Of a DNA stretch of 40,472 bases, positions 56 to 13,880 are shown piece after piece. The translations under genes were made by a program, and so were the position numbers. The stretch is from Candidatus Omnitrophota bacterium (lineage in GTDB: Bacteria > Omnitrophota > Gorgyraeia > VGKH01). Each line of letters starts with the position of its first letter. The stretch's first letter is position 1. The DNA is taken from NCBI GenBank assembly GCA_016867135.1, contig VGKH01000009.1, positions 1 to 40,472 on the forward strand, read 5' to 3'. Under the pieces are notes generated by a model. The model was given only the letters and a program-made list of their open reading frames with translations. It searched no databases and was not told where the DNA came from.

Positions 56-1000
56 TTATACAATTTTCAATTCGAGCTCTAAATTTATGTTAAATTTATC
101 TTTGATCTTTTTCTGAACAAACCTGATAAGATTAATCACATCTTTTGCCTTAGCATTTTTTTCGTTTAAAATGAAATTAGCATGCTTGCCAGAAATTACC
201 GCTCCTCCAACGCGATATCTCTTTAAGCCGCTTGAATCAATCAAATAGCCTGCTGAGATAGATCGCGCAGAAAAATTATCTTGTGTGGCAATGCTCGGAT
301 TTTTGAATACGCATCCGGCATTCCTCCAATTTGAATCCTGCGTATCTTTCTTATACCTTAGGAAATCGCTTACGTTGCGCTCAATCTCAACTCTTTTTCC
401 AGGTTTTAATTTAAGTTTTGCGTCAAGTACGATATATTTTGATAAATTTGAAGATCTGTATCCGAATTTTAATTGGCTTCTCTTTAATATTTTTATTCGG
501 CCGCCAGCGTCCATGACCCTTGCTTCTTTCACTAGCTCCCCTATGCTTTTATAATCATTGTTGAATATTGAATTCGGTCTTGCTCCGGCATTCATTACTA
601 AAGCTCCACCCACTGAACCCGGTATACCGGAAAGAAATTCGCAACCGCTAAGTGATTTTTTCCTGGCAAAATCTATAAGTTTTGCAATTTTTACGCCGCT
701 TCCAGCCAAAATGTATCCTTTGTTTATTTTTACGTCGTTAAAGAAACTAGAATTTAATTTGAGCGCTATACCATTAAACCCTTTATCTCTAACTAAGAGA
801 TTGCTTCCTTCACCTATGACAAAAAATGGAATTTTATTCTTGCTAATAAGCTTCAGAATGTTTTTTAAATCTTCTACATCGGCCGGCTCTACCCAGGCCT
901 TAGCTGGCCCGCCTATCCTAAAAGTCGTATGCCTTGATAAAGGCTCATTGAAGGCAACTTTGCCTTTAACGATTTTCTTTAAGTCTCTGCAATAATTCAT
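56..1000 (-). CDS. murB: UDP-N-acetylenolpyruvoylglucosamine reductase MurB
   Basis: Cytosolic FAD enzyme that reduces UDP-GlcNAc-enolpyruvate to UDP-MurNAc with NADPH. The 314 residues carry the FAD-binding signatures GEGSNLLV (63-70) and IPGSVGGALVMNAGA (126-140), and the C-terminal substrate domain with NAGCVFKNP (227-235). In E. coli the proton donor here is a serine; this protein has Cys230, as some other MurB proteins do. No long insertion typical of E. coli-type MurB is apparent, so the short type (type II) is likely. The ATG start overlaps the end of murC by 35 bp, so the two are probably translationally coupled. Confidence 0.95.
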   Translation of the reverse strand: MNYCRDLKKIVKGKVAFNEPLSRHTTFRIGGPAKAWVEPADVEDLKNILKLISKNKIPFFVIGEGSNLLVRDKGFNGIALKLNSSFFNDVKINKGYILAGSGVKIAKLIDFARKKSLSGCEFLSGIPGSVGGALVMNAGARPNSIFNNDYKSIGELVKEARVMDAGGRIKILKRSQLKFGYRSSNLSKYIVLDAKLKLKPGKRVEIERNVSDFLRYKKDTQDSNWRNAGCVFKNPSIATQDNFSARSISAGYLIDSSGLKRYRVGGAVISGKHANFILNEKNAKAKDVINLIRFVQKKIKDKFNINLELELKIV

Positions 1001-2336
1001 CTGAAAGCCTGCCTATATCGCCTGCCCCCAAGAAGATAACAAGATCTCCTGGTTTAGTTACGGAAGCAAGGTTTTGGATAATTTTATCTTTGGGGACGAA
1101 ACAAACTTCTTTTTTGCTTGCCTGTTTCAATCTGGCGCATAAACTTTCGCCTGTAATTCCTGGTATAGGGGCTTCGCTGGCGGCATATATATCGGTTATA
1201 ATTAAATGATCCACTAAATCAAAACTTTTACTGAATTCTTCCATGAGAAATTTTGTCCGTGAATAACGGTGAGGCTGAAAAGCAACCACTAATCGCTTCG
1301 GGTTAAGACTCTTTGCCGCCTCAAGAGTAGCCCTAATCTCTGTAGGATGATGACCGTAATCCTCAATTACTTTGATATTATTTATCTCTCCCTTTAGCTC
1401 GAATCTACGTTGAACGCCGCTATAGAGAAAAAGACATTCTTTAATCTTTTCAAAATCAATTCCTAAACGAAGCCCTAGGGCTATGGCCGCTAGGGAATTT
1501 GAGATATTGTGTTTCCCCGGGATGCTTAAACTTATCCGGCCTAATGGTTTGTTCTTGTAGACACAGCGAAATGAAGAAGAAAAATCCTTCAATGCAATCT
1601 GGTCGGCGTAGATATCGCAATCTTTAGATAACCCAAATGTCAAATATTTGTTATTTTTGCCATCCAAAATGCTCATGATATTCTTGTCATCTCCGCAAAC
1701 AAAAAGCATGCCATCCTCTTTGGTCTGCCGGAAGAACTTTTTGAAGGCATCAAGGATATTCTCAAAGTTATGATAATAATCCACGTGCTCAAAATCTATA
1801 TTTGTTACTATGGAATATAGCGGATTAAAATACAAAAATGAACCGTCGCTTTCATCCAGCTCGGCGACAAAAAATGAACCTTCTCCCAATAAAGCATTAT
1901 TGTTGAAGTTAAAGACGTTCCCTCCGGCAACGATAGTCGGATTAAAATCGGACTTATTCAAAAGAAAAGAAACCATGGAAGTTGTTGTGGTCTTGCCGTG
2001 AGCGCCGGCAACAGTAATACCTTTTTTATCCTTCATCAATTCCGAAAGGACCTGCGCCCTTTTTGCGATAGGAATATTATTTTGCAGAGAGAAAACTAAT
2101 TCTGAATTTTTATGATCTACGGCGGAGGAATACACTACCAAGTCTATATCTTTATCCCTTAGATTCTTTTCATCATGACCTATGTATATCTTCGCTCCCA
2201 AGTCGCTCAGCTCTTGCGTAGCGCTACCGGATTTTATATCCGATCCACTAACTGAATGCCCTTGCTTCATGAGAATCTTGGCGATGCCGCTCATTCCGAT
2301 ACCGCCGATGCCTATAAAATGGATCGACTTATTCAT
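966..2336 (-). CDS. murC: UDP-N-acetylmuramate--L-alanine ligase MurC
   Basis: Cytosolic ATP-dependent Mur ligase that adds the first residue, L-Ala, to UDP-MurNAc. The 456 residues show the N-terminal UDP-binding Rossmann motif GIGGIGMSGIA (9-19), the ATP P-loop GAHGKTTTTS (111-120), DESDGSF (161-167), NIDFEHVDYY (179-188) and a late DYGHHPTEI motif. The order is that of the three-domain Mur ligase family, and the AHGKT version of the P-loop is typical of MurC. It overlaps the preceding peptidase gene by 8 bp and the following murB by 35 bp. No clear Shine-Dalgarno precedes the ATG, which fits translational coupling. Confidence 0.97.
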   Translation of the reverse strand: MNKSIHFIGIGGIGMSGIAKILMKQGHSVSGSDIKSGSATQELSDLGAKIYIGHDEKNLRDKDIDLVVYSSAVDHKNSELVFSLQNNIPIAKRAQVLSELMKDKKGITVAGAHGKTTTTSMVSFLLNKSDFNPTIVAGGNVFNFNNNALLGEGSFFVAELDESDGSFLYFNPLYSIVTNIDFEHVDYYHNFENILDAFKKFFRQTKEDGMLFVCGDDKNIMSILDGKNNKYLTFGLSKDCDIYADQIALKDFSSSFRCVYKNKPLGRISLSIPGKHNISNSLAAIALGLRLGIDFEKIKECLFLYSGVQRRFELKGEINNIKVIEDYGHHPTEIRATLEAAKSLNPKRLVVAFQPHRYSRTKFLMEEFSKSFDLVDHLIITDIYAASEAPIPGITGESLCARLKQASKKEVCFVPKDKIIQNLASVTKPGDLVIFLGAGDIGRLSDELLQRLKENR

Positions 2337-3117
2337 TCGTAGTTAAATATTTATACCAAACATCATTTAATTCTTTAAGATTATCAAATCTGGCGTAAGC
2401 TGAATCGATGGCACTATCTAGGCTCTTTCCGTCTTTTAATGCCCTGCAAAACCTCACAAAATTATGTTTTCCATATTTACCGATAAGGAATGAAACTATG
2501 CTTACTGACTCATTGTAAAAAAGTTCTACCTTCTCATTGTCAAAAGATGATAATGAATTTATTTCCGTAAGCTCATTTATGGTGATAAATTTTTTTTGCT
2601 CTATAGCTTTCTTTACTTCCTTCTCTGAGCCCCATCTTCTTGTGCGTTCTTGATAACAAGCCACTCCTTCATCCAGCCATAATGGAACATTCTTGTTCTT
2701 GAATCCCACAAACTCCCTAAAAATTATATGTCCTAATTCGTGAGGAAGCAAGGTATCAAAAAAACCCCAGGCCAAGGGATAAGTATAAATTGTCTTTTTT
2801 TCGTACTCTGCATGTCCGCTGGCCCAAGAAGGTTTTCCGGAAGTAGCATGGTAATCTTCGGAATCTTTATATATATAAATCTTGGCACGATCTTCCCATA
2901 ACCAATAATCATAACGCGTAAAACCTAAGTCCCTGGTGATTTTCTGATAATAATCCTCTGCCGCATCGACAACTTCTGCTATGAAATCCTCGGGAGCATC
3001 TTTATAGTAAATAATAAAATGATTGCTGCGCTTGTCTTCCCATCTTTGCTCCTCGCAGAAAGAAATATTCGGTAAAAAGGCTAAAATGAATAGAATGGCG
3101 AAAATTCTGATTAGCAT
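2329..3117 (-). CDS. Secreted zinc metallopeptidase (gluzincin, MA-like) inside the dcw cluster
   Basis: A 262-residue protein with an N-terminal signal peptide (about 1-21, Lys-free hydrophobic core ending near SFC-EE; no good lipobox). The mature part has PHELGH (125-130, HExxH zinc motif with His126, Glu127, His130) and a downstream WLDEG (147-151) whose Glu150 would be the third zinc ligand, the gluzincin arrangement. It resembles the peptidase MA family of small exported metalloproteases. It overlaps murG by 7 bp and murC by 8 bp, so it is co-translated with murein synthesis genes. The substrate is unknown; a periplasmic or envelope role is inferred from signal peptide and context. I do not know a standard dcw member that looks like this. 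Confidence 0.8.
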   Translation of the reverse strand: MLIRIFAILFILAFLPNISFCEEQRWEDKRSNHFIIYYKDAPEDFIAEVVDAAEDYYQKITRDLGFTRYDYWLWEDRAKIYIYKDSEDYHATSGKPSWASGHAEYEKKTIYTYPLAWGFFDTLLPHELGHIIFREFVGFKNKNVPLWLDEGVACYQERTRRWGSEKEVKKAIEQKKFITINELTEINSLSSFDNEKVELFYNESVSIVSFLIGKYGKHNFVRFCRALKDGKSLDSAIDSAYARFDNLKELNDVWYKYLTTNE

Positions 3118-4196
3118 CTTCTTATGGGTAAAACCTCCGCTGCTAAATTCTGTACAGCATTATAGTTTTCTATACGCTCAAAATTTACCTTCATCTGCTT
3201 AATTCTAACTGCGTCTGACGCAAATGATTCTAATTGCTCGGTCAAAATTCTTGCGGAAAGGCTATGCTCATCTATTATGGTTGCCGCTTCGACATCAGAC
3301 AATATTTTTGCGTTCATTGATTGATGCCCGCCGGCGAATGGATAAGGGATTATTATCGCCGGAACCCTTAAAGCTATGAGCTCGGAAATTGTCGAAGCCC
3401 CAGCCCGCGTCACCGCAATATTGGCTAATTTATAAGCATAACCTATTTCTTTTAAAAATGCAAACACTAAAGCATCAATCTTCATTTTTGAATATTCTCT
3501 CAGGACAAAATCGTAATCTTGATGGCCAGCGACATGAATTATGCGAAGTTTTTCTTTATTTCGCATGTTAGTGACTGCATCCAAAATTTTCAAATTTATA
3601 CTGTGGCTGCCTTTACTTCCTCCCATAATAAATATTGTAAATTTCTCGTCGTTTAAATTGAATCTTTTTCGCGCATCTTCAATAGTCGCATCGATTATAT
3701 CTTTACGCACAGGGCAACCAGTAAAAACCACTTTTTTAGCGCGAAAATATTTTATGCTTTCCTTGAAACTTACGGCTATCTTATCAACGAATTTGGCAAG
3801 AATGCTATTTGCCTTGCCAGGGACGACATTTTGTTCGTGGATCATAGTCGGAATTCCTAAGAAATGTGCAACCATAACTACCGGAGCGCAATAATAACCT
3901 CCGAAACCTAACACAATATCGGGTTTTATTTTAAAAAGAATCCGAAGGGAATGAATTGAAGCGGATATTAATTTAAACACGGAGAAAAAGGCTTTGCCGA
4001 AAGCAATAAAAGATATGCCTCTAAGTTTAAAAGGCACAATTTGAAACCCCTTCTCGGCAATCTGTCTATCTATGTCTTCATTACCCGTCTGAAGAACAAA
4101 AATTTCTGCATCATTCTTTTTGCTGAGTTCCTCAGCTAGCGCCAACGCAGGAAAAATATGCCCTCCGGAACTACTCCCCGAAAATAATATCCTCAT
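3111..4196 (-). CDS. murG: Undecaprenyl-PP-MurNAc-pentapeptide GlcNAc transferase MurG
   Basis: Peripheral inner-membrane GT-B glycosyltransferase that converts lipid I to lipid II using UDP-GlcNAc. Of 361 residues, the N-terminal half has the glycine loop GSSSGGHIFPALALAEEL (7-24) and FGGYYCAPVVMVAHF with HEQNVVPGKAN (120-130). The C-terminal half has MGGSKGSHSIN (191-201), TRAGASTISEL (263-273) and PYPFAGGHQ (284-292) for the nucleotide-sugar. The start overlaps the ftsW stop as ATGA. Confidence 0.97.
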   Translation of the reverse strand: MRILFSGSSSGGHIFPALALAEELSKKNDAEIFVLQTGNEDIDRQIAEKGFQIVPFKLRGISFIAFGKAFFSVFKLISASIHSLRILFKIKPDIVLGFGGYYCAPVVMVAHFLGIPTMIHEQNVVPGKANSILAKFVDKIAVSFKESIKYFRAKKVVFTGCPVRKDIIDATIEDARKRFNLNDEKFTIFIMGGSKGSHSINLKILDAVTNMRNKEKLRIIHVAGHQDYDFVLREYSKMKIDALVFAFLKEIGYAYKLANIAVTRAGASTISELIALRVPAIIIPYPFAGGHQSMNAKILSDVEAATIIDEHSLSARILTEQLESFASDAVRIKQMKVNFERIENYNAVQNLAAEVLPIRRC

Positions 4197-5281
4197 ACTT
4201 CTCTTGATTTTGAAATATTAAGCAGCAACCCCAAACCTATCATGTTAAAAACCAAAGAAGTCCCCCCGTAGCTAACAAATGGAAGCGGCAGGCCTTTTGT
4301 CGGCAGGCTGCCGATACTGACGCCGATATTAACGATGGCTTTAAAAGCGATTAAAGCAATGATACCTACGCTCAGATAATGGCCAAAACCGTCTGAAGCC
4401 TTCATTGCTATCTTAGCAGCCGACCAGATAAATAAAATGAACAAAATTACAACTGCAACCGTTCCAATCAAGCCTAGCTCTTCTCCAATGATGGAAAATA
4501 TAAAATCTGTGTGCGCGGCCGGTAAATAAAACAATTTCTGCCTGCCTTGGCCCAAACCAACTCCAAAAATACCTCCAGCACCTAGTGCCAGCTGGGATTG
4601 AACCAGCTGAAAACCAATTCCCTGGGGATCCATCCAAGGATTCAAAAAAGAAATGATTCTCTTCCGACGATAAGGAACGCTAAAAATTAATACGTAAAGA
4701 GCTGGCAGCGCTAATAAAATAATTGCGCCAAGATGCGACAGCCTAATCCCCCCTATAAAAAGCATCACAAAAACTACTACAGATATAGAAACAGCTGTCC
4801 CTAAATCTGGCTGCGCCAATATCAAAAGAACAAAAACCCCCAAAACCATCACCATCGGGGCAAAGCCTGAAAATAAATCCTTGATATCCTTATCCTCTCG
4901 GGATAAAAAACTCGCAGTGTAAATTATCATGGCTAATTGGGCAAATTCTGAAGGCTGAAAACTATAGCCCAGAAATCTAAACCAACGCCTCGCGCCAGCA
5001 ATCTCTTTACTTATCCCAGGAACCAAAACCAAAACCAACATCAAAAAAGATATCAACATCAGAGGCTTGGAATACTTATTTAAAATACGATAATCTATGC
5101 CCATAGCAAATAAACTTAATAATATCCCAAGCAAAACATAAAAGATATGGCGCTTAAGAAAGTAAAACGGGTCGCTCAACCTCTGCCAGGCATAGATGCT
5201 GCTAGAACTATAAATCATTACTATCCCCAAACAGATTAATATCGCAGAAACAATGACCAGATATTTTCGCGTGTCTTGCAT
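4193..5281 (-). CDS. ftsW: SEDS peptidoglycan glycosyltransferase FtsW
   Basis: Polytopic membrane protein (362 aa, about ten transmembrane segments) of the SEDS family, which polymerises lipid II at the septum with its partner class B PBP. Seen here: QPSEFAQLA (109-117), AQPDLGTAV (156-164), NPWMDPQGIGFQLVQSQLA (214-232), the PAAHTDFIFSIIGEELG region with Asp259 at the position of the catalytic aspartate, and PLPFVSYGGTSL (332-343). FtsW rather than RodA is preferred because the gene sits between murD and murG, with the class B PBP ftsI in the same cluster. Five bases separate it from murD. Confidence 0.95.
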   Translation of the reverse strand: MQDTRKYLVIVSAILICLGIVMIYSSSSIYAWQRLSDPFYFLKRHIFYVLLGILLSLFAMGIDYRILNKYSKPLMLISFLMLVLVLVPGISKEIAGARRWFRFLGYSFQPSEFAQLAMIIYTASFLSREDKDIKDLFSGFAPMVMVLGVFVLLILAQPDLGTAVSISVVVFVMLFIGGIRLSHLGAIILLALPALYVLIFSVPYRRKRIISFLNPWMDPQGIGFQLVQSQLALGAGGIFGVGLGQGRQKLFYLPAAHTDFIFSIIGEELGLIGTVAVVILFILFIWSAAKIAMKASDGFGHYLSVGIIALIAFKAIVNIGVSIGSLPTKGLPLPFVSYGGTSLVFNMIGLGLLLNISKSREV

Positions 5282-5286
5282 ATTAT

Positions 5287-6543
5287 CTAAATATTCTTAA
5301 CTATCTCCTTAAATTTTCTTCCCCTATCTTCAAAATCAACAAACATATCAAAACTCTTACACATAGGAGAAAATAAAATACTATCTCCGCTTTTAGCACT
5401 ATTACGAGCTAGATTAATCGAATCTTTTAAGGTCCCAGCCTCTATAATCTTAGTAGCTCCTTCCAAGGCCTTTTTTATCTTAGGCTTAGCCTCTCCTATC
5501 AGAATAAGCTCTTTAACTTTCTTAGCAATTAGCTGCTTTACCGTCGCAAAGTCACTTCCCTTTTCCCTGCCGCCGGCAATCATGATAATGGGCCTACTTA
5601 TATTGCTTAGTGCCCATATCGTTGCCTCTATGGTTGTAGACTTGGAATCGTTAATAAAATCTACGCCATCAATATTCCTAACCCATTCTAAGCGATGCTC
5701 TATCCCCTTAAAGTTTCTAAAGATTTCTAGGCATTTTTCTTTTTTTGCTCCGAAAATCCGAGCCACTGCCAATGCTGCCAGAAAATTAGAATTCAAATTC
5801 TCTTTTCTATCTTCCGTGCTATTAAAAAATGAAACCTGAGATTTTACTTCTTTCGAGATGTTTCTTACCAGTTCATCTTCGTAGTTTAATACTGCCCAAT
5901 CTTTATCGTCCTGATTCATAAAAATGCGCTTTTTTGCAGAAAGATAATCTTGTATACTATTATATCTATCGAGATGATTTGGGCTCAGATTTAAGAATAC
6001 CGCTATTTTCGGCTTAAATTTCTCAATGGTCTCCAATTGGAATGAACTGACTTCAAGGCAAACCAAATCATCTTTTTTTATTCTTGTTATTTCCCTTGAA
6101 AAAGGGTTTCCGATATTACCGCATAAATGCACGTTTTTGCCAGTTAATTTGAGGACTTGGGAAGATAAGGTTGTCACCGTGGTTTTGCCGTTTGTCCCTG
6201 TCACAGCCACAATTGGCGCGGGACACAATAAAAAGCCCAATTCAATCTCTCCGATAATTTTTATTCCTTTTTTTCTGGCCCATTCTAATATTGGCAAATC
6301 CGCCCTTATTCCTGGGCTCATAACGATGATATCGCTATCTTTGATAAAATTCTCGCTGTGCCTACCTATCTCTACATCTATTGATGAATCTAGCTTCTTT
6401 GCGTTTTCTCTAATAGAAGGATTATCATTTATATCAGTAACTTTAATCTTAGAGACCTCTTTTGTCTGCGATAAAAGCAAAGCTACATCAAGACCGCTTC
6501 TTGCTAAACCAAAAACAGTAATGGTCTTATTTTTAAAAATCAT
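5287..6543 (-). CDS. murD: UDP-N-acetylmuramoylalanine--D-glutamate ligase MurD
   Basis: Cytosolic Mur ligase (418 aa) that adds D-Glu to UDP-MurNAc-L-Ala. It has the N-terminal FGLARSG loop (11-17), the P-loop TGTNGKTTVTT (115-125), NLSPNHLDRY (central domain) and the NDSKSTT motif typical of MurD, followed by the C-terminal ligand-binding domain (MIAGGREKGSDF). It lies one base downstream of mraY and five bases upstream of ftsW. No Shine-Dalgarno is obvious in front of the ATG, so coupling to mraY is likely. Confidence 0.97.
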   Translation of the reverse strand: MIFKNKTITVFGLARSGLDVALLLSQTKEVSKIKVTDINDNPSIRENAKKLDSSIDVEIGRHSENFIKDSDIIVMSPGIRADLPILEWARKKGIKIIGEIELGFLLCPAPIVAVTGTNGKTTVTTLSSQVLKLTGKNVHLCGNIGNPFSREITRIKKDDLVCLEVSSFQLETIEKFKPKIAVFLNLSPNHLDRYNSIQDYLSAKKRIFMNQDDKDWAVLNYEDELVRNISKEVKSQVSFFNSTEDRKENLNSNFLAALAVARIFGAKKEKCLEIFRNFKGIEHRLEWVRNIDGVDFINDSKSTTIEATIWALSNISRPIIMIAGGREKGSDFATVKQLIAKKVKELILIGEAKPKIKKALEGATKIIEAGTLKDSINLARNSAKSGDSILFSPMCKSFDMFVDFEDRGRKFKEIVKNI

Positions 6544-6544
6544 C

Positions 6545-7633
6545 TTATCTTAATTTTAACGTGGCTAACGTAATCAAGGATAGAATAATGGCAATTATCC
6601 AGAATCTAATAATGACTTTGGATTCATCCCAACCGAGAAATTGAAAATGATGATGTATCGGGGCAATTTTAAATATGCGCTTTTTTCTAAACTTAAAAGA
6701 ACCGACCTGCAAAATTACCGAAGCCGCCTCTATAACGAAAATCCCTCCCAAAAGGACAAGAAGGAATTCTTTCTTTATGAATATAGCTATTGCGCCCAAC
6801 GTACCCCCGAGCGCAAGAGAACCAACATCTCCCATAAAAATTTCCGCCGGATGGCAATTAAACCATAAAAAACCTAAGCTTGCTCCCAGTATGCTGGCAC
6901 AATAAACAGTCAGTTCCCCGGAATCCACTATATAAGGCAGAAAAAGATATTCGCTAAATTTCAGGTTGCCGCTTATATAACTCAAGATTCCAATGGTTAA
7001 AGCTGCTATGCTAATACAGCCTATAGCTAAGCCATCAAGGCCATCAGTAATATTGACTGCGTTGGAAGTACCAACGATCACAAGCGCTATAAACAGAATA
7101 TAAAATAAACCAGCATTTATTACCACATCCTTTAAGAAAGGAAGGCTTAGTTCCAAAGAAAAATTAGGATCTAGAAAAAGAAATGTCCCAACTGCTAAAC
7201 CTAGTATTAACTGCCAGAATAATTTTGATTTAGCGGATAAGCCTTTGGAAACTTTACTGCGCAGCTTTAAAAGATCGTCGGTAGATCCCAAAACGCCCAA
7301 ATATAGACTGACGAATAAAGAAAGTAAAATAAATTTATTGGTAAGATCGGCCCATAATAAAACCGTTATAAAAACACTTAACAAAATAAAAACCCCACCC
7401 ATTGTGGGGGTGCCGGCTTTATGGCTATGTAAATCATCAAGCTTGAGGCTATCATTTTTCTTGACCTTTTCACGGATTTTATAACTGGCAAATTTAGGAA
7501 TAAATACCTTCCCAAAAATAAAACATAACGCAAAGGCCATAACCGCAGCCATGGCCGCGCGGAAAGTAATATAACGCAAAACATTAAAACCAAAGAATAA
7601 ATCTCTTAATGGATAAAGAAAATGATAAAACAT
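6545..7633 (-). CDS. mraY: Phospho-MurNAc-pentapeptide transferase MraY
   Basis: Integral membrane enzyme (362 aa, about ten transmembrane helices) that transfers phospho-MurNAc-pentapeptide to undecaprenyl phosphate, giving lipid I. Diagnostic motifs: GTPTMGG (74-80), the Asp pair GSTDD (116-120), NAVNITDGLDG (191-201), MGDVGS (267-272) and the triple-His IHHHF (326-330). An AGGA Shine-Dalgarno core lies a few bases before the ATG. It sits in the usual place between murF and murD. Confidence 0.97.
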   Translation of the reverse strand: MFYHFLYPLRDLFFGFNVLRYITFRAAMAAVMAFALCFIFGKVFIPKFASYKIREKVKKNDSLKLDDLHSHKAGTPTMGGVFILLSVFITVLLWADLTNKFILLSLFVSLYLGVLGSTDDLLKLRSKVSKGLSAKSKLFWQLILGLAVGTFLFLDPNFSLELSLPFLKDVVINAGLFYILFIALVIVGTSNAVNITDGLDGLAIGCISIAALTIGILSYISGNLKFSEYLFLPYIVDSGELTVYCASILGASLGFLWFNCHPAEIFMGDVGSLALGGTLGAIAIFIKKEFLLVLLGGIFVIEAASVILQVGSFKFRKKRIFKIAPIHHHFQFLGWDESKVIIRFWIIAIILSLITLATLKLR

Positions 7634-7652
7634 GCTATTTTCCTAACTTTAG

Positions 7653-9023
7653 CTAAAAATTACTCTTTATTTTATCTACTATTCTCTCCAACTTTAACGA
7701 TCGAGAACCTTTGATAAGAATTACGTCACGAGAACTTATGATATCAATCAGTTTATTCCCTGCGTCATCTATAGAATCAAAACTAAAAATCATTTTTTCA
7801 TTAAAGCTACTATCCGAAGCACCTTTGCCCAGAAACCTTGCTAATCTTCCAACCGTAATCAATATATCAACACCGTAATCACCCAGCTTTTTACCTAAAT
7901 CGTAATGGAATTTTCTGCTGCCCTTGCCTAACTCTAGCATATCTCCGCATACTACAATTTTGCGTCTTGAATCGAAGCGAGATATAACTTTTAACGCGCT
8001 TTCCAAAGATTGCGGATTGGAGTTGTAGGAATCATCTATCAAAGAAAAACCATTAACTTTTAGGAAATTAAAACGTGACTTAGGAAAAACAAAGCTCTCC
8101 AACGCTCGTTTAGTTATGGCTATATCTATATTAAAAAGATTGGCGCAGGCAATTGCCGCTAAGGCATTATAGATATTGTGTTCTGCTGGCGTATTTAATC
8201 TAATCCAAGTCTTATTATTTAACAAAAACGCTAAAGAATCAAATCCTAAATTTATTTTTGTTGCTTGGAACTTAGAGCAGTCTTTTTCACTATAACTTAA
8301 TATTCTAAATCTTTTTTTATATTTTGACTCGATTTTGCGCAAAGAACAATCGTCTTTATTAATGACTACTGTCCCCTTGGGATGTAAATTCTTTAGTAAA
8401 CTTATCTTTTCATTAAAAACTGATTCTATATTCTTAAAAAACTCTAGATGCGAAGGTCCGACATTGGTAAAGACAGCTATGTCTGGAATAGCAATCCGGG
8501 AAAGGTTTAAGATCTCCCCTTTGTGATTCGTACCAAGCTCCAAGACAACTACTTCGTGCCTACCGTTTAATTGCAACAACGTCGACGGAACTCCGATATG
8601 ATTATTATGCGTGCCTTGACAAGATAAAACATTATATTTCTCTGCTAAGACACAGGCGATCATATCTTTGGTTGTAGTCTTGCCATTGCTACCGGTAACC
8701 GCAATAACAGGAATATCAAATTTCTTACGATGAAAATTTGCTATATCGGCCAGCGCTTTAACTGTATCATCAACCAAGATAGCTACAAAACCCTTGGGAT
8801 AAGCATTCCTTCTATTTTCGGAAACTATCGCTCCTGCAGCCTTCTTTTCTATAGCTTTTTTTAGAAACGAGTGGCCGTTAAAGTTATCGCCTTTTATAGC
8901 CAGAAACAGCTCTTTAGGTTTTATAGTTCTCGTGTCGGTAGAGATACTTCTAAAAGCAGAATCCAGACTACCTTGCAGTAGCCTTCCCCGGGTGCCTTCC
9001 AATATCTCTTTTACCTTAAACAA
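7653..9023 (-). CDS. murF: UDP-MurNAc-tripeptide--D-alanyl-D-alanine ligase MurF
   Basis: Last cytosolic Mur ligase (456 aa), adding D-Ala-D-Ala. P-loop TGSNGKTTTKD (110-120), the HNNHIGVP motif characteristic of MurF, TNVGPSHLEF, and C-terminal DDSYNSNP. The start codon is TTG: AGAAGG lies eight bases before it, inside the 3' end of murE, giving a 13 bp overlap. An alternative ATG that preserves the N-terminal domain is not available. Confidence 0.96.
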   Translation of the reverse strand: MFKVKEILEGTRGRLLQGSLDSAFRSISTDTRTIKPKELFLAIKGDNFNGHSFLKKAIEKKAAGAIVSENRRNAYPKGFVAILVDDTVKALADIANFHRKKFDIPVIAVTGSNGKTTTKDMIACVLAEKYNVLSCQGTHNNHIGVPSTLLQLNGRHEVVVLELGTNHKGEILNLSRIAIPDIAVFTNVGPSHLEFFKNIESVFNEKISLLKNLHPKGTVVINKDDCSLRKIESKYKKRFRILSYSEKDCSKFQATKINLGFDSLAFLLNNKTWIRLNTPAEHNIYNALAAIACANLFNIDIAITKRALESFVFPKSRFNFLKVNGFSLIDDSYNSNPQSLESALKVISRFDSRRKIVVCGDMLELGKGSRKFHYDLGKKLGDYGVDILITVGRLARFLGKGASDSSFNEKMIFSFDSIDDAGNKLIDIISSRDVILIKGSRSLKLERIVDKIKSNF

Positions 9024-10462
9024 TTCAATATCCTTCTTGTAACTTCTCTATCGTCAAAAGCTAGGCTCTTATCTTTCAATATCTGGCTTGTTTCATGTCC
9101 TTTTCCGGCAATCAAAACAGTATCCTTATCTTTTGCCATCTTTATAGCCTTTTCTATCGCCTTAGCCCTATCCAAGATAATATCATAATTCTTGGTTTTT
9201 ATGCCTTTTAATATATCTTTAATTATTTTTTGTGGGTCTTCTCGTCTCGGGTTATCATTGGTAATAATAAAATAATCTGCGAGCCTGCTTACGAGTTTTC
9301 CCATTTTGGGACGCTTGGTAGTATCGCGTTGTCCACCGCAACCAAAAACTACTATAATCTTTCCTTTATGGAACTCTTTTAAGGATGAAATAACATTTTT
9401 TAATGCATCTTCCGTATGAGCATAATCAACAAAAACGCCGAACTTTTGGCCCTGATTTATTGCCTCCATCCTACCGGCAACACGATCTATCTTTTCAATA
9501 CCTCTTTTAATTATGCTGAAGTTTATTCCTTCAATAAAACCAACGGAAACTGCTGCAAGAATATTGTAAATATTGTGCCTCCCGATTAGCCCGGTTTGTA
9601 TGCTGAGCCGACCTTTGGGAGTTAAGATTTGAAAATCGCTTCCCTGAATACTTAGATTGTTGTTTTTGGCTCTTATTTGAGATTTTTTAGAAAAACCAAA
9701 TGTGATTTTCCTGGCTTTGGTCATCTTTAGCAAGCGGCTTGAATAAGGATCATCGATATTTACCGCAGCGTAAGCTTTAGGGTTTAAATTGGTAAATAAT
9801 TTTGCCTTGGCCGTAAAATACTCTTCTAAGCTATGATGATAATCAAGATGATCCTGAGTCAAATTTGTAAAAATCGCTATATGAAAATTAACATCTCTTA
9901 CCCTCTCCTGTTCCAAAGAATGCGACGATACCTCCATAACGCAATATTTCAGCTTTTCTTTAGCCATTTTTGCTAAGAATGCCTGCATTTCAAGCGCGCC
10001 TGGAGTTGTATTTATCGACGGAAGGACCATATGCTTGAATTTGTAATTTATGGTTCCAATCAAACCAGTGGGATAACCTGCTTCCTCCAAAATGCTCTCA
10101 ATAAGATAAGTGATTGTGGTTTTTCCATTAGTGCCGGTTACGCCAATTACTTTTAATTTTTCGGAAGGATAATCATAATATTTTGCCGCCAGTTCAGAAA
10201 TTGCTTTGCGGGTATCCGCAACATTTATAACAGTTGTTTTCTTTAAATCTATATCTTTAGCAACAAAGATATCTTTCTGCTTTACTACGCAAACTGCGCC
10301 ATTCTTAATAGCATCTTTTATAAACTTATGACCATCTTGTTCTGCGCCCTTAATTGCTACAAAAATCTCTCCTCGAGAAATTAACTTTGAATCGGTATTT
10401 ATACCTTTTATCTCTAAATCTTGGGCTTTGTTAAGATTAGTGAATAACTCTCTTAGTCTCAT
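9011..10462 (-). CDS. murE: UDP-MurNAc-L-Ala-D-Glu--meso-diaminopimelate ligase MurE
   Basis: Mur ligase (483 aa) adding the third stem-peptide residue. P-loop GVTGTNGKTTITY (107-119), EVSSHSLEQERV (177-188), DYAHTEDAL (346-354) and the specificity motif DNPR (403-406). DNPR is the hallmark of meso-DAP-adding MurE, while lysine-adding enzymes differ here, so the organism should have DAP-type peptidoglycan. It overlaps ftsI by 26 bp and murF by 13 bp. Confidence 0.96.
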   Translation of the reverse strand: MRLRELFTNLNKAQDLEIKGINTDSKLISRGEIFVAIKGAEQDGHKFIKDAIKNGAVCVVKQKDIFVAKDIDLKKTTVINVADTRKAISELAAKYYDYPSEKLKVIGVTGTNGKTTITYLIESILEEAGYPTGLIGTINYKFKHMVLPSINTTPGALEMQAFLAKMAKEKLKYCVMEVSSHSLEQERVRDVNFHIAIFTNLTQDHLDYHHSLEEYFTAKAKLFTNLNPKAYAAVNIDDPYSSRLLKMTKARKITFGFSKKSQIRAKNNNLSIQGSDFQILTPKGRLSIQTGLIGRHNIYNILAAVSVGFIEGINFSIIKRGIEKIDRVAGRMEAINQGQKFGVFVDYAHTEDALKNVISSLKEFHKGKIIVVFGCGGQRDTTKRPKMGKLVSRLADYFIITNDNPRREDPQKIIKDILKGIKTKNYDIILDRAKAIEKAIKMAKDKDTVLIAGKGHETSQILKDKSLAFDDREVTRRILNCLR

Positions 10463-12152
10463 TTAAGTCTACTAGTTCCATTTCTTCCATACTCTTAAGA
10501 TATTTTAAAGCATCTTCGGCAATCTTCTTAAAAACCGGGGCAGAAACCGTTCCTCCTAAATATGCGGGATGCGGCTCATCGAAAGAAACAACAATGGCAA
10601 GTTGCGGATCCTCTACTGGAATGAAGCCCATAAAAGTAGCTATGAATTTTGAGTGCGAATATACTCCATTTTCAACTTTTTGAGCAGTACCGGTTTTTCC
10701 AGCTGCTCTATAGCCTTTGATCTGTGCGCCTTTGCCCGTGCCTTCTGCGACTACCGCTGCCAAAATATCCTTCATTCTGGACGCCGTTTCTGCAGTGATG
10801 GCTCTTCTTATTTCCTGAGGGGAAAATTCTTTAATTAACTCTCCTTTTTTATCTTGGATGCGCTTGATAACATAAGGCCGCATCTGGATTCCGTCGTTTG
10901 CAATAGCAGACAATGCAGTAACCAGCTGTATTGCAGTAACGCACACCTCCTGACCTATGGGTATTGCACCTATAGAAGTCTTTGACCATTTCTCCGGAGG
11001 CTTATTCTGGCCTCCTACCTCGCCGGGAAGATCAATTCCGGTTAAAGAGCCGAAACCGAAAAGTTTAGCATATTTATATACCAGCTCTGGACCTAAAATC
11101 TGAGCTACCTTTGTGACTCCGATATTACTGGATTGCATCATTACTTCCCTGAATGTCAACGTTCCATGCGGACGGTAATCATGCAAAATATGATTGCCCA
11201 CTTTATACGAACCGTTTTCGCAGAAAAATTTATCTGCCTCCTTGACCTTGTCCTCTTCTAGGGCAGCCGAAGCGGTGACAATCTTGAATACGGAACCCGG
11301 TTCATAAAAATCGCATATAGATCTATTCCTGTGCGACCCTGCTATAGAATCATCAAAATTATTTAAATCAAAAGTCGGACGGTTAGCCATAGCGAGTATC
11401 TCCCCAGTTCTAGGGTCCATAACTATAACGCTTGCGCCACTGGCATTATGTTTCTTGAATGATTCATCTAGCGCTCTCTCGGCTATAAATTGAATTGTCT
11501 CATCAATAGTTAAAACAATATCATAGCCATCTTTAGGGGGGACAAATTCCTTCTCCAGCATTATCCCTTTTTGTTTCGCGTCCCTTAAAATCATGCACCA
11601 GCCAAGTTTTCCTCTAAGATACTTGTCATAATGAAGCTCTATTCCTTCGAGCCCCACATTATCTAAACCAGCAAAGCCAATAACATGGGAAGCAAGCTCC
11701 GCGTCCGGATAATGTCTCTTTGTCTCACGTTTAAAACCTAACCCGTCAATACTCATCTTCTTTATTGCATCATATTGCCGGTCAGTCAGCTTTCTTGACA
11801 GCCAAATAAATGCCTTTTTGCGGTTTAACCTCTCAAGAAAGAAATCTTTTTTTTGACCCGTAATTAGGGCGAGTCTTTCTGCTAAAGCATTTTTGTTTTT
11901 TATCTTCGTGGGTACTGCATACAATGATTGCGCGGGCAGATTCGTGGATAAAGGCCTCATGTGGCGGTCAAATATTATGCCTCTTTCTGGTTCTAGCTCC
12001 AATAACAAATTATGTTGCTTCTCGGCAATTTTCCGAAGATGTTCGGATTTAAAGATTTGTATAAGGACGAGTTTAATTGAAAAAAGTAATAGGGTTAATA
12101 AAAGAAAGGAAATAACCGCCCTGAGGCGGTTTGGGGATTTCTTAATAAACAC
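10437..12152 (-). CDS. ftsI: Class B penicillin-binding protein, FtsI (PBP3)
   Basis: Septal D,D-transpeptidase (571 aa) anchored by one N-terminal transmembrane helix (about 13-33). The PBP dimerisation domain follows (about 50-200, with ERGIIFDRHMRPL), then the transpeptidase domain with the three active-site motifs SVFK (Ser287), SSN (341-343) and KTG (486-488). The C terminus is short, with no PASTA domains. The start appears to be GTG at 12152 without a clear Shine-Dalgarno, nine bases after the ftsL-like gene. Neighbours rsmH, the ftsL-like gene and murE fix it as the division PBP rather than the elongation one. Confidence 0.95.
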   Translation of the reverse strand: MFIKKSPNRLRAVISFLLLTLLLFSIKLVLIQIFKSEHLRKIAEKQHNLLLELEPERGIIFDRHMRPLSTNLPAQSLYAVPTKIKNKNALAERLALITGQKKDFFLERLNRKKAFIWLSRKLTDRQYDAIKKMSIDGLGFKRETKRHYPDAELASHVIGFAGLDNVGLEGIELHYDKYLRGKLGWCMILRDAKQKGIMLEKEFVPPKDGYDIVLTIDETIQFIAERALDESFKKHNASGASVIVMDPRTGEILAMANRPTFDLNNFDDSIAGSHRNRSICDFYEPGSVFKIVTASAALEEDKVKEADKFFCENGSYKVGNHILHDYRPHGTLTFREVMMQSSNIGVTKVAQILGPELVYKYAKLFGFGSLTGIDLPGEVGGQNKPPEKWSKTSIGAIPIGQEVCVTAIQLVTALSAIANDGIQMRPYVIKRIQDKKGELIKEFSPQEIRRAITAETASRMKDILAAVVAEGTGKGAQIKGYRAAGKTGTAQKVENGVYSHSKFIATFMGFIPVEDPQLAIVVSFDEPHPAYLGGTVSAPVFKKIAEDALKYLKSMEEMELVDLNETKRVIH

Positions 12153-12161
12153 AATTTTAGA

Positions 12162-12554
12162 TTACTTTCTGATTCTCTCTGTTGCTTCTGCCTGAGAACC
12201 TAAGTTAAACAATAACGCAACTAAATTATATCTTGGACGCCGCTGCTGGGCTGCTGAGTTTGCATTCCAAGACTTAGCCAATTGAGCCGGCAACTTCAAA
12301 GAAGATATCTGTTCTTCTGCGGTAAACTGAAGTTCCGCTTTGGAACAAAGCATTTTGTTGCCTATATTTTGCGCCGACTCTAATCGATCTATATTATACA
12401 CTAGAACCGTTTTGGTATCAAGCAAGTCGCGCAACTGGGATTCTTTGTCGTTTGCTGCGTAGGCAGACTGAAAAATGACTACCTGCATCTGCACATAGAG
12501 CAGGCTGATAATTGTTACCATTATCAAAAATCCGAAAAACCTGCTTAATCTCAT
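12162..12554 (-). CDS. ftsL: FtsL-like bitopic cell-division protein
   Basis: A 130-residue protein with a short basic N terminus, one transmembrane helix (about 8-30) and a charged, heptad-like stretch (about 35-70) that could form a coiled coil. This is the topology of FtsL, which with FtsB and FtsQ activates FtsW-FtsI. FtsL sequences barely resemble one another, so the call depends on topology and on the exact canonical position between rsmH and ftsI. The start codon directly follows the rsmH stop (TAA then ATG). An oddity is the polar, Gln/Ala/Arg-rich tail of about 50 residues beyond the coiled coil. Confidence 0.65.
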   Translation of the reverse strand: MRLSRFFGFLIMVTIISLLYVQMQVVIFQSAYAANDKESQLRDLLDTKTVLVYNIDRLESAQNIGNKMLCSKAELQFTAEEQISSLKLPAQLAKSWNANSAAQQRRPRYNLVALLFNLGSQAEATERIRK

Positions 12555-13439
12555 TTAGATCCTTTCAGCCACCCGCAAGCGGGCACTTCTAGCACGTACA
12601 TTCTCTGAAACTTCCTGCTCGGTAGATCTCAAGGGTTTCTTAGTAATAATCTCTAGGATGCCCTCTCTTGAAAAATTCTTAAACTTCTCCTTAACTATTT
12701 TATCTTCTAGGGAATGAAAAGAAATAACGCAGATCCGACCGCCCTTGCTCAAAGACCTTATCGCTTTATCCAATGCCATATCAAGAGCTTCTAATTCTCT
12801 ATTGACTGCAATTCTAAAGGCTTGAAAGGTACGTGTCGCTGGGTGGATTTTTTGTGCCGCATATCTGTATCCGACAGCCTTCATGACAATATCTGAAAGT
12901 TGCTTAGTGGTTGCAATGGGATTTCTCATCCTCTCTTCCACAAGATAATGGGCGATACGATTATGCCATCTCTCTTGGCCAAAGTTCTTTAGTATACCTG
13001 AAATTTCTGTTTCTGAGAGCGAATTTACCAGATCATACGCAGAGATATAACTGTTTTTATCCATGCGCATATCTAGAGGGCCGTCTTCTCTTATGCTAAA
13101 TCCCCTTTTGGAGTTATCCAGCTGGAACGATGAAATTCCTAAATCAAAAAGGATTCCATCGATATTCTGCACCTTTAAATTCTCTAATATCCTATCTAAG
13201 TGCCTGAAATCGTCTTTGATAAGAGTGTAGAATCCGCTGAATTCTTTCAAATTGTTTTCTGCGATAGATAGGGAATCGGCGTCTCTATCAACGCCTATAA
13301 GCCTTCCCTGCGGAGCTATCTTCCTAAGGATCTCCTGGGCATGGCCTCCTGTCCCTATCGTGCAATCAAGAACGACTTTGCCTGGGTTAAGATTCAGATA
13401 TTGTGCTATTTCTTCTCGCATAACTGGTTTATGCTCCAT
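12555..13439 (-). CDS. rsmH: 16S rRNA (cytosine(1402)-N(4))-methyltransferase RsmH
   Basis: SAM-dependent methyltransferase (294 aa, formerly MraW) acting on C1402 of 16S rRNA. It opens with HKPVMREEI (3-11), has the SAM-binding LDCTIGTGGH (24-33) and GVDRDADSL, then the family signatures FDLGISSFQLDN and RGFSIREDGPLDMRMD, and ends with ISFHSLEDKIVKEKF. It lies six bases downstream of mraZ and abuts the ftsL-like gene, the near-universal mraZ-rsmH-ftsL order. Confidence 0.97.
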   Translation of the reverse strand: MEHKPVMREEIAQYLNLNPGKVVLDCTIGTGGHAQEILRKIAPQGRLIGVDRDADSLSIAENNLKEFSGFYTLIKDDFRHLDRILENLKVQNIDGILFDLGISSFQLDNSKRGFSIREDGPLDMRMDKNSYISAYDLVNSLSETEISGILKNFGQERWHNRIAHYLVEERMRNPIATTKQLSDIVMKAVGYRYAAQKIHPATRTFQAFRIAVNRELEALDMALDKAIRSLSKGGRICVISFHSLEDKIVKEKFKNFSREGILEIITKKPLRSTEQEVSENVRARSARLRVAERI

Positions 13440-13445
13440 TTCTGC

Positions 13446-13880
13446 CTACTCAATTAACTTTTCAGCAACATCTTCAAAAGACTCTTTGGATGAATTAAAA
13501 AATTCTCCCCAAGAATCTCTGCTCCAGATTTCGATTCTGTTAGAAACTCCGATAATAATTACTTCGCGTTTTATCCCGGCAAAATCTTTTAGATATTGCG
13601 GAACAAGAATCCTGCCTTGTTTGTCGGGAATAATTTCAACTGCACCAGAAAAATATATGCGGTTAAATTGCCTTGATTCTTGCTTAGTAAAAGACATAGT
13701 CCTGAATTTCTGTTCCTGAAGCTTCCATTCCTCTTCAGCAAACATAAATAAACATTTATCCAGTCCTCTAGTTAAATAGAATTTTTCTACGAAATTTGCT
13801 TTGGCAGCATCGCGGAATTTTGATGGCAGGATTATGCGGCCTTTTCTATCTAATGTATGGAGATATTCACCGTAAAACAT
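13446..13880 (-). CDS. mraZ: Transcriptional regulator MraZ
   Basis: First gene of the dcw operon (144 aa). Two SpoVT/AbrB-like half-domains are visible, one with LDRKGRIILPSKFRD (10-24) and one with PDKQGRILVPQYLKDF. MraZ forms a ring-shaped oligomer that binds short direct repeats at its own promoter and represses the cluster in the bacteria where it has been studied. Three AAGTG repeats spaced exactly 10 bp apart lie 37-62 bases upstream of this ATG. No clear Shine-Dalgarno precedes the start. Confidence 0.95.
   Translation of the reverse strand: MFYGEYLHTLDRKGRIILPSKFRDAAKANFVEKFYLTRGLDKCLFMFAEEEWKLQEQKFRTMSFTKQESRQFNRIYFSGAVEIIPDKQGRILVPQYLKDFAGIKREVIIIGVSNRIEIWSRDSWGEFFNSSKESFEDVAEKLIE

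Follow-up and report, generated by a model that had tools for sequence, protein, structure and literature searches.

Few gene clusters of bacteria are as stable as the dcw cluster, whose canonical order runs mraZ ... murG-murC-(murB)-ddlB-ftsQ-ftsA-ftsZ (PMC8871954). The window analysed here, namely, the whole stretch of 40,472 nucleotides taken from a Candidatus Omnitrophota MAG (G000), holds the same genes in the same order, plus one gene for a predicted exported protease between murG and murC. Is this gene a genuine and lasting member of the cluster, what kind of enzyme does it encode, and what might such an enzyme do among the genes of division and wall synthesis?

A peptidase gene between murG and murC

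The gene lies at 2329..3117 on the minus strand and encodes, from an ATG start, a protein of 262 aa annotated as a putative exported gluzincin-type zinc peptidase (Peptidase_MA_2). Its start shares 7 bp (3111-3117) with the end of murG (3111..4196, minus strand), its upstream neighbour, and its end shares 8 bp (2329-2336) with the start of murC (966..2336, minus strand), its downstream neighbour, which overlaps murB (56..1000, minus strand), the operon's next gene, by 35 bp. The contig stops just past murB; the congener L004 continues with ORFs whose lengths suit ddl, ftsQ and ftsA. The other dcw genes, ftsW, murD, mraY, murF, murE, ftsI, ftsL, rsmH and mraZ, occupy 4193..13880 on the minus strand with mraZ at the 5' end, which gives a single-strand run of 13 genes, mraZ-rsmH-ftsL-ftsI-murE-murF-mraY-murD-ftsW-murG-peptidase-murC-murB, whose largest intergenic gap is 19 bp. 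MurB, MurC, MurG, FtsW, MurD and the peptidase were assigned from Pfam matches, and MraY, MurF, MurE, FtsI, FtsL, RsmH and MraZ from gene order and translations. Promoter predictions across the region did not rise above chance level.

The initial annotation, made from the sequence alone, had described an ORF with a HELGH motif overlapping both neighbours by 7-8 bp, and our coordinates agree with it. It had also noted that such a gene was not known from any standard dcw cluster; the dcw gene list of a review does not mention a murG-murC peptidase (PMC8871954). The portion consulted of a PVC cell-division study (PMC12283558) makes no mention of one either, and we found no published description of a peptidase between murG and murC in the full-text literature, a scope that leaves out most subscription journals.

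A chance ORF was considered and ruled out, since the same protein occupies the same slot in 97 genomes and comparison with L004 gave a pN of 0.10 against a pS, already saturated, of 0.85; the ORF is thus genuine. The peptidases of G000 and L004 are 82% identical, whereas the same pair of genomes shows 80% identity for MurC, 68% for MurB and 65% for MurG, such that, between congeners, the peptidase is conserved about as well as MurC and better than MurG. The nearest named relative is isolate RA.bin136, whose peptidase is 82% identical to that of the window. The gene is under strong purifying selection, and conservation of this strength disfavours the status of a passenger.

A long-standing operon member in one class

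Relatives of the family were found somewhere in 305 of the 384 Omnitrophota genomes searched, and the top 30 are all located between murG and murC. The locus could be read in 182 genomes, a sample biased by the partly deliberate choice of genomes without a match: the slot is occupied in 97 of them, murG is directly followed by murC in 83, and two are unclear. A random draw of 64 genomes yielded 19 with the gene, 36 without it (one of these unclear) and nine unreadable loci, that is, 19/55. The 97 dcw-plus genomes represent 19 family-level groups, all from one class, and the dcw peptidase was found in none of 16 genomes from other Omnitrophota classes. Beyond the survey, which covered Omnitrophota genomes, the family was not found in 14 control genomes, and viral contigs scanned with the family profile contained no relatives.

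These data show that, in one large Omnitrophota class, the peptidase has long belonged to the dcw operon. A survey of dcw clusters in related genomes was the check proposed in the initial annotation, and its outcome is that 97 genomes, from 19 families, carry the gene at this place; the alternative raised there, a gene found at scattered loci and here by chance, does not fit a family divided into location-specific subfamilies (see below) whose dcw place is kept across 19 families. The fixed role that it suggested stands only in part: the place in the cluster is fixed and non-random, but the gene is missing in other classes and was lost about ten times within its own.

Some loci depart from this arrangement. 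Two dcw-plus genomes of the same family have further genes between murG and the peptidase, namely, a toxin-antitoxin-like pair of HEPN and nucleotidyltransferase proteins (L194:5253-6282, minus strand) and a DUF559 protein (L191:4026-4412, plus strand). In a genome without the dcw peptidase, the reading frame of a MurG homologue (G126:C1:180039-181118) contains a single TGA, either an assembly error or real.

Predicted active site and export

The window protein matches Peptidase_MA_2 (PF13485, a gluzincin family of clan MA) at residues 79-258, with E=3.2e-22 and a score of 79.8 bits, where the family cut-off is 32.4, and the same family was matched by 20 of 20 subfamily members tested. The dcw peptidase shares with PF13485 the HExxH motif and the downstream Glu, and the dcw subfamily is set apart by its dcw location. 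NCBIfam and PHROGs returned no match for the peptidase, and our full-text literature search found no assigned role for PF13485.

First, concerning the active site, HELGH corresponds to residues 126-130, E150 is the third zinc ligand as judged by sequence, and Y201 is the candidate catalytic Tyr. Ten residues are identical in 125/125 relatives (H126, E127, H130, E150, Y201, W72, W98, I110, P145 and F220), and the gluzincin signature, HExxH with an invariant Glu some 18-20 residues downstream, is present in all 125. The invariance of H126, E127, H130, E150 and Y201 makes the protein look like an active M1-like gluzincin with an intact catalytic site.

Second, a profile built from 20 relatives and compared with solved structures had M1-type aminopeptidases as its nearest matches, the best being 4kx7 (E=3.5e-4, profile positions 117-240); phmmer with the window protein against solved structures gave nothing meaningful. 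When the profile is aligned with M1 aminopeptidases (PF01433; human glutamyl aminopeptidase, 4kx7, and a cold-active aminopeptidase, 3cia), HExxH and the third-ligand Glu coincide, and a Tyr falls in the part of the alignment where M1 enzymes have their catalytic Tyr. From this alignment, together with general knowledge of M1 enzymes, Y201 may be the equivalent transition-state Tyr. Weak matches to PF01433 were also obtained for five of the 20 members at a threshold of 0.01. Despite this core similarity, identity as an M1 aminopeptidase was rejected: the dcw peptidase has less than one third of the length of these enzymes, and it lacks the GAMEN-like glutamate that anchors the substrate N-terminus, the stretch before HExxH reading WSxGxAxYxxKxI, with no GxMEN. 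The missing GAMEN motif makes an endopeptidase more likely than an aminopeptidase.

Third, a signal peptide is predicted at about residues 1-21 of the window protein. A hydrophobic signal core occurs in 95/96 dcw copies and an AxA-like end in 96/96, as called with a simple hydrophobicity scale and a pattern rather than a dedicated predictor; a lipobox occurs in 1/96, which does not suggest a lipoprotein. A signal core ending in an AxA-like motif, with no conserved lipobox, points to a soluble product located in the periplasm or outside the cell. The sequence evidence for Sec export and for a zinc-protease fold is strong, and the predicted signal peptide and intact catalytic residues thus sustain the initial label of an exported zinc peptidase. 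AlphaFold2, run with the window protein and its L004 relative alone, returned an unusable model, with a pLDDT of 42.

Losses and sister subfamilies

On a tree of MurG, MurC and FtsW, presence or absence of the dcw peptidase requires 11 changes, as compared with 47 when labels are shuffled. Since the minus genomes from other classes fall within one large minus clade of this tree, the simplest reading is a single gain, after which the gene was cleanly lost about ten times; several independent gains may have taken place, but they are not favoured as the simplest reading. No remnants of the gene were found in dcw-minus loci, and a short murG-murC overlap is common at loci where it was lost. Several of the losses fall in one family. 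Repeated loss implies that the gene is not universally essential.

In the peptidase tree, dcw copies and copies from two other settings form separate groups, with few exceptions. One sister subfamily resides in type II secretion (T2SS) operons, between gspF and pseudopilin genes, in several Omnitrophota classes (L133-L136, L138, L139, L190, L237, L238, L242-L245, L247 and L248), including classes other than that of the dcw copies (L242-L244 and L247); this wide spread suggests that the T2SS copy is perhaps older than the dcw copy. A third subfamily (L132, L137, L140, L141, L198, L201, L240, L241, L246 and L250) follows genes for a large secreted-looking protein, of up to ~1900 aa within the stretch read, and for a conserved exported-looking protein of 228 aa, directly upstream of ATP synthase genes. 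With close relatives fixed in secretion and ATP-synthase-linked loci, the role of the family is broader than division. Fixed differences between dcw and T2SS copies at positions 66, 89, 131, 135 and 155 hint at distinct partners for the two.

Functional interpretation

Based on these results we lean, with modest confidence, towards a periplasmic endoprotease that is co-produced with the wall-synthesis enzymes. Its task, while the cell grows or divides, would be to process an envelope protein or to remove it. By means of the overlapping frames, the peptidase would be translated together with murG and murC, so that its amount would follow that of the wall-synthesis machinery. After Sec export, the soluble enzyme would reside in the periplasm, with HELGH and E150 binding zinc and Y201 steadying the transition state. 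There it would act on the periplasmic side of the growing or septal wall, cutting a specific envelope protein, such as a division or wall-enzyme partner, for its maturation or removal. However, about ten losses, several of them in one family, indicate that the peptidase is dispensable; operon membership could reflect expression timing alone; and the sisters at T2SS and ATP-synthase loci mean that a division-specific role does not follow from the family.

The processing of a division protein, which the initial annotation had suggested, would be a reasonable reading, and regulated proteolysis of division proteins has precedents. RasP acts on FtsL in Bacillus subtilis, and in E. coli PBP3 and MepS are targets of Prc. 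As proposed for the dcw peptidase, these are proteases of the division and wall machinery, but they are of the intramembrane or serine type, their genes lie outside dcw, and their sequences are unrelated to that of the dcw peptidase. A further precedent is VgrG2b, a gluzincin acting in the periplasm; E. coli shows septal blebbing under its action, and it pulled down PBP5, PBP6a and MltC (PMC6899460). Its C-terminal domain combines HExxH, a periplasmic site of action and a connection with septation and with enzymes of the wall, although VgrG2b is a T6SS toxin of the DUF4157 family delivered into rivals, whereas the dcw peptidase is encoded in the wall operon of its own host.

VgrG2b also bears on whether the substrate could be murein itself, given that it did not hydrolyse murein in several assays (PMC6899460). 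A murein endopeptidase that cuts peptide cross-links for strand insertion, made together with the precursor enzymes such that cutting balances synthesis, would agree with the place of the gene among wall-synthesis genes, with the predicted export and with sisters in the operons of wall-crossing machines such as the T2SS; moreover, three dcw-plus genomes have no M23 match (G112, G130 and G101) and a fourth only a weak one (G169). However, at E values up to 1 the window protein matches Peptidase_MA_2 as its sole Pfam family, with no murein-hydrolase or murein-binding domain found, the closest solved relatives act on protein or peptide substrates, and most genomes, whether dcw-plus or dcw-minus, already have M23 endopeptidases, G000 having two. 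We therefore regard murein cleavage as possible but less likely, and as an account of the gene it seems to us unlikely; the murein cross-link processing that the initial annotation had entertained is weakened by the single domain and by the VgrG2b precedent.

Other envelope peptidases were compared with the dcw peptidase by eye, and neither S11 carboxypeptidases, S41 processing proteases nor M23 endopeptidases showed a clear tie to its presence or absence. G000 has no match to an S11 D,D-carboxypeptidase, and few clear ones occur in the class, where S41 and M23 peptidases are common. M23 domains were also seen in giant open frames of other Omnitrophota genomes, of 42,913, 57,756 and 38,661 aa (G080:C2, G243:C2 and G095:C8, respectively).

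We are equally doubtful of a general envelope protease, for quality control or nutrients, that happens to be tied to the dcw promoter and whose location would count for dosage rather than for a partner in division. Repeated clean losses, sisters in unrelated operons and a host genome with a single copy of the family, the dcw one, would all suit it. Nevertheless, the place is fixed over 19 families, the clades are location-specific as opposed to shuffled between sites, and dcw and T2SS copies differ at the five fixed positions listed above. Lastly, a catalytically intact hitch-hiker retained by its location in an essential operon, with no fixed function, agrees with clean loss in several lineages but is very improbable, as a neutral passenger would be expected to decay across 19 families and not to keep its catalytic residues invariant in 125/125 relatives under strong purifying selection.

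The periplasmic endoprotease that we favour could belong to a wider pattern. It is tempting to speculate, and we do so tentatively, considering it somewhat less probable than not, that copies of one ancestral exported gluzincin arose by duplication and became fixed, each on its own, in T2SS, giant-protein/ATP-synthase and division loci, giving rise to a family of envelope-machine proteases of which the dcw copy would be the dedicated wall-growth member, new to described dcw clusters. The sister copies at T2SS and dcw loci provide a natural comparison for partner choice.

It is unusual for an exported catalytic protease to be kept inside the dcw cluster in much of a class, and its long fixation between murG and murC points to a hitherto unrecognised protease acting on the cell envelope as it grows. 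The dcw peptidase is a concrete candidate enzyme for a substrate search. If our reading is correct, proteolysis would be an integral part of wall growth or of division in this phylum, whose bacteria are uncultured and mostly ultra-small.
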